The position numbers and the translations under genes were made by a program. The notes under the pieces were generated by a model, which was not told where the DNA came from, did no database searches, and worked only from the letters and a program-made list of their open reading frames with translations. A stretch of 64,000 nt of DNA from Salinivenus sp. Its GTDB lineage: Bacteria; Bacteroidota; Rhodothermia; Rhodothermales; Salinibacteraceae. Within the stretch, counting starts at the first letter, position 1. Each line of letters opens with the position of its first letter. Shown here piece after piece: positions 1 to 46,729 of the stretch. The stretch lies in assembly GCA_018609755.1 (NCBI GenBank), contig JAHENZ010000222.1:22327-86326 (forward strand). The letters run 5' to 3'.

Positions 1-374
1 CTCACCTTCGTCGTCAGGGCAGAGGACATTCAGGCGGGGTTGCTCACAACCACACTCATGGGCGTCGTCGTCTCCGAATACGTAGGGGGCTTCTTCTGAC
101 GGAGATCCTCGTTCTCCTCGTGCCCCCTGCAGCGGTGGGTGTCTGCTGCATCGGCGCCAAGCGTACGTGACACGTGCAGGCAGTTCTCGCCTGGCTCGCG
201 CCGCAGACAATTCTTGTTTGGGGAGAACGCAAGCTACAGGGCCTTGCGCGGTAGCATCAGATCCAGGATCCTGACATGGGTTCGTCCCTAGTCAGCACTG
301 ACATCCAACACCCAAAAGCGCTGGGGAAACGGTCCACAGAAGCATTCGGGAAAACGTCTGGCACGACATACTGA
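1..374 (+). pseudogene. Remnant of a CPA1-type cation/proton antiporter (5' end outside the window)
   Basis: Reading the plus strand gives pieces that align in order with the intact antiporter at 41764-43638. Bases 1-99 encode a stretch sharing AGLLTTTLMGVVV, with two small in-frame deletions. Bases ~96-210 match the later membrane segment (LLTEILVLLV against LLTGILVLLV, then LAWLAP against LAWLAP) in shifted frames with stops. Bases 258-374 match the intact protein's C-terminus (QIQDPDM.SSLVSTD) and end at a TGA at 372. The region between, including the whole Rossmann/RCK part, is missing. The gene therefore has internal deletions, frameshifts and stops and cannot make a working transporter. 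It is followed by a zinc-ribbon gene exactly as the intact copy is. Confidence 0.85.
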
Positions 375-596
375 GAGATGTGAACGGGCTCTGAAAGAAT
401 ACTCGGACCTCGACGCCGCACGGTCTTGGCGATCTAGATCTCCAGCCTCTGAGACCTTCTCTATCGATGAAGTGGTTTTACATACCCGTGCACGAATCAG
501 CACGTAAAAACGAAGAGAGAACCCAAACTCCTCATCCCTTCTGCGTTAGACGGTACATCTTGCAGAGACAGTCATTCGAATTTCGCTTTCGGCAAC

Positions 597-803
597 ATGC
601 CTGAACTTTCCTACCCGTTCACCTACGAGTGCAATTCGTGCGGCGCAGAAACGAGGGTGACGCGAGCCGACGCCCGTGATCGGCATCCGAACCCCGAAAG
701 CCTCGATGCTCCGAAGAACGTTCTTCAGAAGCGAGGGTGGATGCAGCTGCCGATTGGTCGAACCTATTGTCCCTGGTGCACGCCTCCGGAGATGAAAGAC
801 TGA
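597..803 (+). CDS. Small zinc-ribbon protein, copy 1
   Basis: This 68-residue protein carries two CxxC pairs, CNSC near residue 13 and CPWC near residue 59, the layout of a small zinc ribbon. Function is not known to me. A paralogue at 41471-41677 is about 80 percent identical (for example LQKRGWMQLPIGRTYCP is the same in both). The ATG at 597 is chosen because the paralogue has a GTG at the matching codon; DNA similarity continues about 40 bases upstream of it, but the copy-2 TTG further up is TCG here. It sits 220 bp behind the antiporter pseudogene. Unlike its neighbour it has stayed open and conserved, which suggests it is or was recently under selection. Confidence 0.72.
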   Translation: MPELSYPFTYECNSCGAETRVTRADARDRHPNPESLDAPKNVLQKRGWMQLPIGRTYCPWCTPPEMKD

Positions 804-1062
804 GAGACTGTGTGGCGGGACGCTCTATGAACACCCCAGGGCACTTCTTTCCTTCTCAGGGCACCACGACTTCGTGGATCTCGTGTGAGACAGGGAAAGA
901 TCGTATGCCGACACTGACAATCCTTCCCCCTCGTAAAAATAGAGGGCAGGAGATGTGCTTTTTGTCGATCAACAAATCAAAATCAAGACATAGAAGGCCA
1001 GCACGAGAAGGGACTCGGGCCTCTAATTGAAACCGTCAGACGTGACCGTTCCGTGCGAAGGA

Positions 1063-1764
1063 TCACTGGGCCGAGGCTTTGCCATCTCCGTGCGTGCCCT
1101 GTCCGTAGGTCCACTGCACCGCGTACTGCAGCAGCTCCGACACCGTGTCAAACCCGAGCTTCTCCTTCGCGCGGCGGCGGTACGTCTCGATGGTTTTGCG
1201 ACTCAGGCTCAGGCGGTCCTGGATCTCCTGAACACTGTAGCCCTGACCCAGCATTTGAAAGACCGCCATCTCCCGATCGGTCAACTCGTCGATGGCAAAG
1301 CTCGGCTCCGACGTGCGGCCCATAGCGACCTTGTTGAGAATCCGCGACGACATCTTGCGGCTCAGGTAGACCTCTCCTTCGTGTGCGGAGCGAATGGCTT
1401 CGACGATGGTTTTCGTCGGTTCACTCTTCATGAGATAGCCCGCAGCGCCGGCCCGGATGGCCCGCTCAGCATAGACGTTCTCGTCGTACATGGAGAAAAC
1501 AATCATCCGAACCTCCGGATACTGCGAGCGGACGTTCTGGACGAGATCGAGCCCGTGGGCGTCGTTCAGTGAGATGTCGACGATGGCCACGTCGGGCTTC
1601 AATTCTTCAATCTCACGGAAGGCCTCATCAGAAGAGGAGGTTTCCCCGCAAATCTCCATGTCGATGGTGCCTTCGATGGTGTCGCGAATGGCCTCGCGGA
1701 TCGCGGGATGATCGTCGACGAGGTATACGCGGATGTGATCTGTAGAGCGATCGTTCGACGACAT
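1063..1764 (-). CDS. NarL/FixJ-type response regulator
   Basis: Two-component response regulator of 233 residues: an N-terminal receiver domain (acidic pair VDDHP near residue 17, phospho-acceptor Asp about residue 63 in IVDISLND) and a C-terminal LuxR-type helix-turn-helix (LSLSRKTIETYRRRAKEKL). It should bind DNA and regulate transcription when phosphorylated by a sensor kinase, but no kinase lies next to it, so the signal is unknown. The ORF is open 56 codons further upstream. The ATG at 1764 is preferred because the receiver fold starts about ten residues later and the extra N-terminus does not look like coding sequence. Confidence 0.9.
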   Translation of the reverse strand: MSSNDRSTDHIRVYLVDDHPAIREAIRDTIEGTIDMEICGETSSSDEAFREIEELKPDVAIVDISLNDAHGLDLVQNVRSQYPEVRMIVFSMYDENVYAERAIRAGAAGYLMKSEPTKTIVEAIRSAHEGEVYLSRKMSSRILNKVAMGRTSEPSFAIDELTDREMAVFQMLGQGYSVQEIQDRLSLSRKTIETYRRRAKEKLGFDTVSELLQYAVQWTYGQGTHGDGKASAQ

Positions 1765-1929
1765 AGGCGTAGGGGAACTTATGAGCGGACGGGGCAAGAT
1801 CCAAAAGTCATAGGACCACGGGTCCCATAAGATAATGGGACATGCGAGAAAAATAACCCTACCATGATCGTTTTCAAATTTATAGGGGGAATCTCCTACA
1901 CCTGCATCATCTTTTGGATGAGATTGGGC

Positions 1930-1976
1930 CAAAACAAAAAAGAGTGAGGCGACCGGGACCGGTCGACCTCACTCTT
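1930..1976 (-). terminator. Rho-independent terminator of tRNA-Gly
   Basis: On the minus strand an 17-18 bp stem (AAGAGTGAGG then CGACCGG, one bulged base) with a short loop is followed by TTTTTTGTTTT. It begins 5 bases after the tRNA-Gly 3' end, so it should end that transcript. Confidence 0.85.
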
Positions 1977-1980
1977 GAGG

Positions 1981-2053
1981 AGCGGGCGATGGGAGTCGAA
2001 CCCACGACCTTCTGCATGGCAAGCAGATGCTCTAGCCGCTGAGCTACGCCCGC
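1981..2053 (-). tRNA. tRNA-Gly (anticodon GCC)
   Basis: The minus strand folds into a full cloverleaf: acceptor GCGGGCG pairing with CGCCCGC, D arm with AGCTCAGCGGCTAGAGC, anticodon stem-loop CTGC-TTGCCAT-GCAG with GCC at the anticodon, and T arm GTGGGTTCGACTCCCAT. The 3' CCA is not encoded (CCT follows the discriminator). Confidence 0.95.
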
Positions 2054-41470: not shown

Positions 41471-41677
41471 TCAGCTTTTCATCTCCGGAGGCGTGCATTT
41501 GGGACAATACGTCCGGCCAATCGGCAGTTGCATCCATCCTCGCTTCTGGAGAACATTCTCCACTGCATCAAGGTTATCGGGGTTTGGGTGACAGTCGCGA
41601 GCGTCGCCTCGCGTTACCCTCGTCTCTGCGCCGCACGAAGTACACTTGTAAGTGAACGGATAAGAAAGTTCAGGCAC
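41471..41677 (-). CDS. Small zinc-ribbon protein, copy 2
   Basis: 68 residues, with CxxC pairs CTSC and CPKC, nearly identical to copy 1 at 597-803. The ORF track starts at TTG 41698. I prefer the GTG at 41677 because it lines up with the ATG of copy 1, and copy 1 has TCG, not a start, where this TTG lies. The gene lies 86 bp behind the CPA antiporter on the same strand, so the two may be co-transcribed. Function unknown; a DNA/RNA- or protein-binding metal ribbon is plausible. Confidence 0.75.
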   Translation of the reverse strand: MPELSYPFTYKCTSCGAETRVTRGDARDCHPNPDNLDAVENVLQKRGWMQLPIGRTYCPKCTPPEMKS

Positions 41678-41763
41678 GTACCCGAAAGAGTAATTCAAAT
41701 GATCGTCTCTGCAGTCTGGCGTAGGTCCCGGCGTGCTGCCTCCCGACTGTCGATGTGCCCGGT

Positions 41764-43638
41764 TTATCCCGCGTTTTCTCTCTGCTGGACGTCAGTGCTG
41801 ACCAGGGATGAGACCATGTCGGGGTCCTGGATCTGGTTTTGCCGCGCAAGGAAGACAACCTGATCGCCGGGTTGGGGCGTTTCGGACTCGACCTCCGACA
41901 GCACAATGAGGTGCTGATCACGGACGATAAACATCGGAAGTATATCCGTCCCTAGTCGCTCGCGCAGGACCTCGAACGAGACCGGAATGTCCGGCTCTAC
42001 GACGTGCAGACGGTCCCCCCGCCGGAAGCGATCGCGGAGGGTCTTGCAGCTTGCATCCTCCCCGAACAGGAGATGACCGCGCAGGTGGCTTGGGAGCTCT
42101 CCTTCCGCGTAGCGATTGTCGGCGTGCGCCGGAAGCTGGAAGATGTCGGTCGTTTCGAACACCTCCGAGAAGTGAAGCGCAACGAGGGAGGCGACCTCAT
42201 CATCCGGAATCGCAATGAGCAGATGCCCGATGCCACTCAAGTCGAGGTCGTCAAGGACCGACTCGGAAAGGATGTCCACCCGCCGGGCGGGCACGCCCTG
42301 CCTCTTGGCCCACTGGACCCGATCGGGGTTCGAATCGATGAGTTGGACCGTAACGCCAAGTCGCTGCAGAGCCGAGGCGACGGTACATACCCAGCCCTCT
42401 GCCCCGACGAAGAGAATGCCCTGCGGATTGAGATCAGCCATTCCCAGCCTACTTGCGAGAAGGGGAGCCGTCAGGCCGTAAAGGGCGACGGTTCCTACAA
42501 TGACGCTGAACACGACGGGAACGAGCGCGTCGGCCGATTCGGGAGCAACCGCCTGCAGGTCAAACGCAAAAAGCGAGGCCATTGCCGCCGCGACGATGCC
42601 TCGGGGGGCAAGCCAGGCCAGAAACGCCTGCTCGCGCCACGAAAGCCCCGTACCAATGCAGGAAACGATCACCGCCACGGGGCGAACGAGCAGAACGAGA
42701 ATTCCCGTCAGGAGAAGCGTTTGCCCGCCTACGTGTTCGAAGACGGCGAGGTCGAGCCGAGCGCTCAACACGATGAAGAGGGTTCCGATGAGGAGGACCT
42801 GGAGGTTTTCTTTGAACTCGATAATGCGCTGAACCGGGACGTACTCTTGATTCGCAACGACAACGCCCATCAGCGTCGTCGTGAGAAGCCCCGCCTCGTG
42901 CTGAATGGCCTCCGCGCCGACGAAGGCGACGACGACAAAGGTGAGAGTGAGCGGATTGCGCAGGAAATCGGGAACGAGCCGCCGGCGGAGCGTGAAGATG
43001 AGAAGTGCGGCGACACTCCCTCCCACGAGGACACTTCCGCCAAGGGCCAATCCTAGGCCCTTAAGAACGTGGAGCGTGGCTCCGACGACGCCGGGCGATG
43101 AGACCGTCGGGTCGTGCAAAAGCAAGATCACCTCCAGGACGAGGACCGACAGGATCGCGCCGATGGGATCGATCGTGATCCCTTCCCACTTGGCGATCGC
43201 CCCAATTCGCCCCTTCGGCCGAATCTGGCGCAAAAGCGGCACGATTACCGTCGGGCCCGTCACGACGAGAATTGCCCCCGTGAGAAGGGAAAGCTCCAGC
43301 CCGAATCCTTCCGTCCCGTACACAGAGGCAGCTCCGAGGACCCAGGTCACGAGAACCCCAACCGAAATCAGGTTCCGGACCGGCGTTCTGACCTCTTTCA
43401 GCTCTTTAAGCCGCAAGTTGAGCCCGCCTTCGAAGAGGATTATTCCGACGGACACGGACACAAAGGGATAGAGCCAGTCTCCCTGTAGCAGGGCAGGGTC
43501 CACAATTCCGAACACCGGCCCGGCCAGAAACCCTGCGCCGAGCAGTAGAAGAATGGAGGGAAGCTGGTACTGCCAGGCGACCCACTGGGCCCCAATCCCC
43601 AGAACCAAAATAAGTGCACCCGAAAAAAGGATTGTCAC
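41764..43638 (-). CDS. CPA1-type cation/proton antiporter with a Rossmann/RCK domain
   Basis: Sodium or potassium/proton antiporter of 624 residues, GTG start. The membrane part covers residues ~1-400, about 11-12 helices, with FEGGLNLRL, VTGPTVIVPLLRQIRP and WEGITIDPIGAILSV, the acidic cation-binding helix. A cytoplasmic Rossmann domain of TrkA-N type (ILFVGAEGWVCTVASALQRLGV) has a degenerate glycine motif, and a TrkA-C-like domain ends near residue 600. Such proteins adjust internal sodium, potassium and pH. A decayed copy of the same gene, also followed by a zinc ribbon, opens the window. Confidence 0.92.
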   Translation of the reverse strand: MTILFSGALILVLGIGAQWVAWQYQLPSILLLLGAGFLAGPVFGIVDPALLQGDWLYPFVSVSVGIILFEGGLNLRLKELKEVRTPVRNLISVGVLVTWVLGAASVYGTEGFGLELSLLTGAILVVTGPTVIVPLLRQIRPKGRIGAIAKWEGITIDPIGAILSVLVLEVILLLHDPTVSSPGVVGATLHVLKGLGLALGGSVLVGGSVAALLIFTLRRRLVPDFLRNPLTLTFVVVAFVGAEAIQHEAGLLTTTLMGVVVANQEYVPVQRIIEFKENLQVLLIGTLFIVLSARLDLAVFEHVGGQTLLLTGILVLLVRPVAVIVSCIGTGLSWREQAFLAWLAPRGIVAAAMASLFAFDLQAVAPESADALVPVVFSVIVGTVALYGLTAPLLASRLGMADLNPQGILFVGAEGWVCTVASALQRLGVTVQLIDSNPDRVQWAKRQGVPARRVDILSESVLDDLDLSGIGHLLIAIPDDEVASLVALHFSEVFETTDIFQLPAHADNRYAEGELPSHLRGHLLFGEDASCKTLRDRFRRGDRLHVVEPDIPVSFEVLRERLGTDILPMFIVRDQHLIVLSEVESETPQPGDQVVFLARQNQIQDPDMVSSLVSTDVQQRENAG

Positions 43639-45060: not shown

Positions 45061-45167
45061 ACGGCAGTCTGCTGCCACTTTGATTGAAGAGACCAACGTA
45101 CCGCGTAGTGCAGCGTCAACTATGATTTTTCCGGTAGGTCAAATTCGGAAGAGCGACACGTTTTGTA

Positions 45168-45190
45168 GCGCCGTTGGAGTCCAACGGCGC
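45168..45190. repeat. Perfect palindrome between pncA and pncB
   Basis: GCGCCGTTGGA-G-TCCAACGGCGC: 11 bp arms around a single base. It lies in the gap between convergent genes and may be a bidirectional 3' end structure, although the T runs flanking it are poor. Confidence 0.6.
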
Positions 45191-45337
45191 CACAGGGGCG
45201 ATTTCGGACAGAATCGCCAAACATGTACGCGACGTGTCGCGACTCTTACGTCCAAACATTGAGAGTTGACGTAGCAGTAGGGGCTGTACCTGCGTCCCAT
45301 GGTCTCCTTATACCAGGTGGGGAGTTCCGAAAACAGG

Positions 45338-46729
45338 TCACATTGTACGTTCGAGGCGCTGTCGCGTCTCTTCGAGGCGTCCTTCCATCGCGTCACTAAG
45401 AGCCACGTCGTAGCCTTTCTCGCTGCGGTCGAGAGCGCGCAGTCGGTCTGGAAGTTCGGCCACGCGGGCGGCGGCGTGCTCGCGGATCGATTCGAGCGGG
45501 CGGGGGACGCCGGCCTCCGTCCGGGTCCCCCGCGCCATCACTCGTTCAAGAAGGGACGCGCCGGGAGGCGGGTCCTCTACGGTCGCGATGACGTCGCGCA
45601 CCGCCGTCCCGTTCTCGTACTGCCGAATGACCTGCTTCCGCCCCGGCAGGTTTGACTTCTTGGAGGAGAGCTTCATGCGGGGCGTGCCCGCATAGCCGCA
45701 CAGCTTGTAGGCGCTGTCGAGCGTGGGCTGGTCGGCCGAGGTCCCCATCTTCGTCCCCACCCCGAAGCCGTCGATCGGGGCCTCCCGGTCGAGCAGCCCT
45801 CGAATCTTGTACTCGTCGAGACCACTGCTGGCGAAGATCATCATGTCAGTGAGTCCGGCCTGGTCGAGAAGACGACGTGATTCCTTGGCCAACTCCGCCA
45901 GGTCCCCGGAATCGAGCCGGATGCCCCGCACCTGAAAGTCGTCGCCCTTCTCCTCCGCAAGCTCGATCACCTTCTTCACTCCAGAAATCGTGTCGTAGGT
46001 GTCGACCAGCAGGATCGTCTCCGGATACAGCTCCGCAAACTCGCGGAAGGCGTCCATTTCGGAATCGTGAGCCTCGATGTAGCTGTGCGCCATCGTGCCG
46101 GTAATGGGGAGGTCGTAGGCCTGACCAGCGGCAACGTTGGAGGTGGCGTCCACCCCGGCGATGTACGCGGCGCGAGCTGCCTTCATCGATGCGTCCGTGC
46201 CATGCATGCGGCGCATGCCGAAATCGGCCACCAGTCGCTCGCTGTCCCCACCCCGCGCCGCCTCCACCACCCGGACCGCCTTCGAAGCGATCATCGTCTG
46301 GAACGTAATCTGGTTCAAGAGAAACGTCTCGGCCAGCTGCGCCTCCCCAATCGGGGCCACGACCTCCACGAGCGGCTCGTCCGGGAAGACGGGCGTCCCC
46401 TCCGGCACGGCGTACACGTCGCCGGTAAACTCGAAGTCTTCCAGCCACGTCAGAAAGTCGTCCGAAAACTGGTCCTGTGCCGCGAGGTAGGTTAGCGCCT
46501 CCTCCGAAAAGGAAAGCTCTTCCAGATACTCCAGCGCCTGCTCGAGCCCGCAGGCCAGGAGGTAATTGCGGTCCTTGAGGCGGCGCACGAAGAGATCGAA
46601 CACTGCCGTCTCGTCCATGCCCTCCCGCCAGTAGGCCTGGAGCATCGTCAGCTGGTACAGATCCGTATACAACGGAGCAGTTTCCTCGCCGAACGTTCCC
46701 GGAAACGGTGCAGCGTCAGAATTCATCAT
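45338..46729 (-). CDS. pncB: Nicotinate phosphoribosyltransferase
   Basis: Makes nicotinate mononucleotide from nicotinate and PRPP, second step of NAD salvage. The 463-residue protein has LYTDLYQLTMLQAYW, the catalytic region ITGTMAHSYIEAHDSEMDAF, and DTYDTISGVKK, and the phosphate-binding RLDSGDL. Two ATGs in a row (46729 and 46726) precede the family N-terminus; either may be used. It is convergent with pncA, so the two salvage genes share their intergenic region at their 3' ends. Confidence 0.95.
   Translation of the reverse strand: MMNSDAAPFPGTFGEETAPLYTDLYQLTMLQAYWREGMDETAVFDLFVRRLKDRNYLLACGLEQALEYLEELSFSEEALTYLAAQDQFSDDFLTWLEDFEFTGDVYAVPEGTPVFPDEPLVEVVAPIGEAQLAETFLLNQITFQTMIASKAVRVVEAARGGDSERLVADFGMRRMHGTDASMKAARAAYIAGVDATSNVAAGQAYDLPITGTMAHSYIEAHDSEMDAFREFAELYPETILLVDTYDTISGVKKVIELAEEKGDDFQVRGIRLDSGDLAELAKESRRLLDQAGLTDMMIFASSGLDEYKIRGLLDREAPIDGFGVGTKMGTSADQPTLDSAYKLCGYAGTPRMKLSSKKSNLPGRKQVIRQYENGTAVRDVIATVEDPPPGASLLERVMARGTRTEAGVPRPLESIREHAAARVAELPDRLRALDRSEKGYDVALSDAMEGRLEETRQRLERTM

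Follow-up and report, generated by a model that had tools for sequence, protein, structure and literature searches.

Remains of a second antiporter and zinc-ribbon gene block in a Salinibacter-group genome, with probable decay of the transporter and retention of its small neighbour

We analysed a window of 64,000 nucleotides (G000:C222:22327-86326) on an 86-kb contig within the 5.0-Mb draft genome of a halophilic bacterium of the Salinibacter group, together with the adjoining 10 kb on the left (L005; subtracting 10000 from an L005 position gives the window position). The combined results make it very likely that positions 1-803 preserve what is left of a second block of antiporter and zinc-ribbon genes, in which the transporter has decayed and the small gene has been kept. 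The block would have been inserted next to a tRNA-Gly, in the space that separates two paralogous response-regulator genes, inverted with respect to the intact copy 41 kb away; the homology and this setting were observed directly, and from them we infer copying within this genome. The extra antiporter has decayed without constraint, through the deletions, frame changes and stops that are visible in it. A TA-flanked, MITE-like repeat, recognised by its match to other copies, may subsequently have landed between the relic and the zinc-ribbon gene and decayed in its turn, while the zinc-ribbon gene and its 36-bp leader appear, on statistical grounds, to have remained constrained.

The intact locus, from whose type of antiporter the relic derives, holds the following genes:
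41764..43638, minus strand: intact cation/proton antiporter, 624 aa, with the Pfam domains Na_H_Exchanger and TrkA_N; source type of the relic
41471..41677, minus strand: zinc-ribbon copy 2, 68 aa, GTG start, directly downstream of the intact antiporter

The intact antiporter scored 117.9 bits with Na_H_Exchanger (PF00999; cut-off 26.2) and 36.8 bits with TrkA_N (RCK; cut-off 23.8), and both domains predict a cation/proton antiporter. It reached none of the NCBIfam equivalog cut-offs, and with the PRK05326 potassium/proton antiporter equivalog it scored 108.6 bits, below the curated cut-off of 309. An extra antiporter would have been redundant, since the same genome has two more intact antiporters besides that of the window (L094 9601-11436 and L095 2720-4549). 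Downstream of the C87 antiporter of this genome lies an amino-acid permease-like gene, an arrangement shared with the nearest relative, G009, and no zinc ribbon is found there. The gene region at window positions 45364-46686 has a second copy in the same assembly (G000:C170:671-1996; 90% identity), which could be a paralogue or the product of a mixed bin.

BLASTN against the reverse-complemented intact locus revealed four collinear pieces of the antiporter at the left edge of the window, in the same order and on the same strand:
-22..79 (1..79 inside the window), plus strand: piece A, antiporter nt ~678-789, residues ~227-263; 68% over 113 columns, E = 2e-7
59..209, plus strand: piece B, antiporter nt ~884-1042, with an in-frame TGA; 70% over 159 columns, E = 8e-17
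172..258, plus strand: piece C, the weakest, antiporter nt ~1529-1614; 66% over 87 columns, E = 1e-5
242..328, plus strand: piece D, antiporter nt 1788-1875, the C-terminal end, with an in-frame TAG

The BLASTN match of piece D extends over 242..380, with 72% identity over 148 columns including the 3′ spacer (E = 2e-14) and 83% over the first 69 bases. Pieces A and B share a short overlap of microhomology, such as a deletion joint would leave. The pieces scored 74.6, 67.0, 43.6 and 37.3 bits, and 300 dinucleotide shuffles gave at most 30.6 bits, ruling out chance similarity to the antiporter. TBLASTN recovered residues 227-267, 318-349 (with one TGA) and 597-619 (with one TAG), and the frame changes between the first and second segments. 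About 400 of the 1875 nt of the antiporter survive (about a fifth, ~80% being deleted); no match to the first ~226 codons turned up in the 10 kb left of the window. These data bear out the proposal of the first-pass annotation, made from the letters of the window, that ordered antiporter fragments with deletions, frameshifts and stops lie at this edge, and the nucleotide alignment to the intact locus is significant well outside the zinc ribbon. It had placed the fragments at 1-374: the homology there is real, but the relic starts 22 bases outside the window and its gene part ends at 328. Nor is the C-terminal end the exact one it had described, as the TAA stop of the intact gene aligns to GAA at 326-328 and is therefore lost.

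No different working gene was found to enter 1-374 from the left: the next gene on that side encodes a response regulator and lies on the other strand, and no intact frame extends into the relic. Among eight antiporters compared, the relic was closest to the intact one of the window; the other seven came from this genome and relatives, and C87, C213 or their relatives were rejected as the source on the basis of weaker, incomplete matches. When changes were polarised with the C87 antiporter as outgroup, those on the relic branch were spread over codon positions 1/2/3 (22/26/19), whereas those on the intact branch fell mostly at third positions (3/2/15). Collinear homology above chance, a broken frame and loss of codon-position bias on its own branch class the relic as a pseudogene.

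A zinc-ribbon gene follows the relic, as had been noted, in the order of the intact locus, but not directly, since a decayed repeat intervenes:
369..503, plus strand: decayed MITE-like repeat, TA-flanked, with ends CTGATACGTG / CACGGATCAG and ~35 extra internal bases; repeat model R1, 35.4 bits, E = 3.8e-10
561..596, plus strand: conserved zinc-ribbon leader, 29/36 bases identical to the intact locus
597..803, plus strand: zinc-ribbon copy 1, 68 aa, cysteines 12, 15, 58 and 61; 85% amino acid identity to copy 2

The spacer between relic and zinc ribbon has an excess of ~180 bp (about 381-560), which is largely this repeat, the only copy in the window; none lies between the zinc ribbon and the antiporter of the intact locus. 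Better copies measure ~100 bp and run from TA and CTGATACGTG to CACGGATCAG and TA, with TA at both ends in most of them. At E ≤ 0.01, a sequence model found 47 copies here and 95 in G008, whereas G009 has 2 and every other genome searched has at most one. Its short length, multiple copies, inverted ends and, in most copies, TA target-site duplication identify the family as putative MITEs. The family, with loci L114-L117 and L119-L148, includes in this genome a group of weaker, similar copies that sits at contig ends. A second dispersed repeat, at window positions 45104-45283, has TA-flanked inverted ends (approximately GTGCAGCGTCAACT / AGTTGACGTAGCAG) and several copies here and in G009. A structured RNA at 369-503 was rejected given only weak folding (z = -2.5 and -1.7 for two better copies, +0.3 for the window copy), and the search for known RNAs in the spacer returned only tRNAs and sub-threshold noise. 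No published account of the MITE-like repeat or of the zinc-ribbon family in Salinibacter was found in the literature searched.

A profile search across 346 genomes sampled in the phylum detected the zinc-ribbon family in only three others, all of this genus, and a search of the genus added G004 and a weak match in G005. The family also occurs on the Salinibacter ruber plasmids pSR10, pSR11, pSR31 and pSR60, the last of which (L112) carries two copies, one interrupted by a stop codon, and on two virus contigs, one of which (L108) has genes for a tail tape measure protein, an integrase and ParA next to it. The plasmids so named put the genus of the window at or near Salinibacter. Three element-borne copies (on virus contig L108 and on plasmids pSR10 and pSR31; loci L108, L109 and L110) come after a ParA gene and a small second gene; in L108 and pSR31 this second gene weakly resembles ribbon-helix-helix proteins. 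The plasmid zinc-ribbon genes mostly lack annotation in the plasmid table used. The zinc ribbon is near a tRNA-Ala in G003, G010 and G004, and near a tRNA-Gly, 3.6 kb from a tyrosine integrase, in G007; this last region (L043 5015-12929) contains the integrase, a PIN-like protein and the zinc-ribbon relative, and its tRNA is orthologous to that of the window. G003 and G010 have three zinc-ribbon relatives each, two of them divergent (L105, L106, L044, L045). In S. ruber, tRNAs and XerD or phage-related recombinases are known to border genomic islands (PMC6060240). Elsewhere, across the relatives, plasmids and viruses examined, the zinc ribbon had no antiporter beside it. A less sensitive scan of further genome contigs with copy 1 returned a single partial match, which fell within a longer unrelated frame and which we judged to be due to chance. 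This distribution indicates an unnamed family of very small zinc-ribbon proteins that is restricted to the genus and carried by plasmids and viruses of Salinibacter.

The two zinc-ribbon copies of the window align by BLASTN in an ungapped block of 244 bp (561..804), comprising the gene and the 36 bases before it, and share 82% DNA and 85% protein identity, clearly short of the near-identity at first ascribed to them. Their differences by codon position are 6/6/23 (23 of the 35 changes at third positions) with no indel, and the dN/dS comparison gave 0.13. At the rate of the relic, 12 or fewer changes in the 134 sites of positions 1 and 2 would be expected with P = 0.005, a conservative test given that the rate was taken from the pieces that can still be aligned. 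Small indels number ~9 in ~440 bp of relic pieces versus 0 in the zinc-ribbon block. Statistically, these comparisons indicate that copy 1 is under purifying selection. One could argue that copy 1 is instead a young pseudogene, open by chance, as it is short and has some changes at positions 1 and 2, and as members of this family do decay, judging from the interrupted copy of pSR60. The lack of indels, the predominance of third-position changes, the low P value and the retention of all four cysteines nevertheless make this very unlikely. The even pattern of changes in the relic, set against that of the intact gene and the constrained zinc ribbon, directly supports the view that the transporter decayed neutrally while the 68-residue neighbour stayed open under constraint, in agreement with the initial reading. 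Constraint on the gene and its leader argues that the small protein has a use that does not depend on the antiporter. The claim that the small gene has a value of its own thus holds in so far as it is constrained and occurs without an antiporter elsewhere, but that value may be to a mobile element and not to the cell. The arrangement provides a within-genome control, in which two neighbours from one block, of the same age and in the same place, differ in that one was probably released from selection and the other not.

The surroundings of the block are as follows:
L005 8413-9249, strand opposite to the relic: response regulator RR1, a paralogue of RR2; left border of the gap holding the block
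1063..1932, minus strand: response regulator RR2 (Response_reg and LuxR-type HTH; PF00072, PF00196); right border of the gap
1979..2053, minus strand: tRNA-Gly (gcc), by ARAGORN and Rfam; 1.2 kb from zinc-ribbon copy 1

The order RR1-RR2-tRNA-Gly is kept in six relatives (G009, G012, G001, G018, G016 and G014), and neither an antiporter nor a zinc ribbon was found in the syntenic RR1-RR2 gap of any of them, so the block most likely entered there in this lineage. A precise empty-site joint could not be drawn against these relatives because the intergenic DNA is too diverged. The dS of the zinc-ribbon pair was 0.73, compared to 0.68-1.24 for flanking orthologues with G009, which dates the split of the two copies as old and near the divergence from the closest relative compared. 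The antiporter tree places the copy of the window outside the C87/G009b pair, suggesting an old paralogue or a foreign type, and this type is absent from G009; one or both copies may be foreign. Synteny of the intact locus with G009 holds on one side only, up to ~41186.

The two-gene block that had been called duplicated is indeed present twice, and duplication within this lineage is the likeliest and simplest reading. Separate acquisition of two antiporter and zinc-ribbon pairs from related donors (xenologues), one antiporter decaying afterwards, would accommodate a pair dS close to the species-level distance, the mobility of the zinc-ribbon family and the lack of this antiporter type in G009. 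However, the pair is absent from every other genome, plasmid and virus examined, so two independent arrivals need more events than one copying, and we regard them as improbable. A plasmid donor of the antiporter was rejected, the best-ranked matches having less than 40% identity. As to the direction of copying, a tentative case, somewhat short of even, can be made that the pair resided first at the tRNA-Gly site and that the intact locus (41471-43638) is the derived one: in G007 the orthologous tRNA-Gly has a zinc-ribbon relative 2.8 kb away, with side and orientation both as in the window, and the intact locus sits at the synteny break with G009. Against this, six other relatives with the RR1-RR2-tRNA-Gly order have neither gene there, and the G007 zinc ribbon is nearer to the tRNA-Ala copies of other species than to those of the window. 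Read as a duplicated block with one decayed gene, the left edge of the window is biologically an ordinary gene relic, of modest interest for the small mobile family that it exposes.

Among 14 members of that family, C12, C15 and C58 are invariant and C61 is present in 13, forming two CxxC knuckles. The two copies of the window matched Pfam Zn_ribbon_8 only below threshold (13.0 and 17.5 bits; cut-off 34.4). A small structure model built from three sequences had a pLDDT of 84.6, and the PDB search with it gave no match at E ≤ 0.001 and hence no fold-based clue to function. The four cysteines in two knuckles and the confident small model agree with a putative zinc-binding domain. We tentatively suggest that the protein might be a small zinc-binding adaptor that binds a nucleic acid or protein partner for mobile elements. 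A rather unlikely variant is that it is a cargo protein of Salinibacter plasmids and phage-plasmids, acting together with or beside ParA partition cassettes, which came to rest on the chromosome by an antiporter and is retained there independently of it, for instance so as to interfere with similar incoming elements.

Compared to known systems, the relic is no different in kind from other pseudogenes that follow duplication of a gene block, where a redundant gene is lost by stops, frame changes and deletions and its neighbour is kept; here the neighbour is very small and a MITE-like repeat lies between them. The intact gene resembles the NhaP2/PRK05326-type antiporters with RCK (TrkA_N) in having both domains above the Pfam cut-offs, and differs in falling below every NCBIfam equivalog cut-off. 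TA-targeting MITEs are of the IS630/Tc1-mariner type, and the repeat is like them in its ~100 bp, its inverted ends and the TA at both ends of most copies. PHROG 17873, a family of 69-residue phage proteins, is matched by the pSR31 relative over its length (E = 8e-7), whereas the copies in the window show at best a marginal match to it. Single-domain zinc-finger micro-proteins of fewer than 70 residues have been studied in Haloferax volcanii (PMC6562870), and the Salinibacter proteins are comparable to these in size, four-cysteine zinc-binding pattern and halophilic host; in contrast, they are bacterial, share no sequence family with them and are linked to mobile elements.
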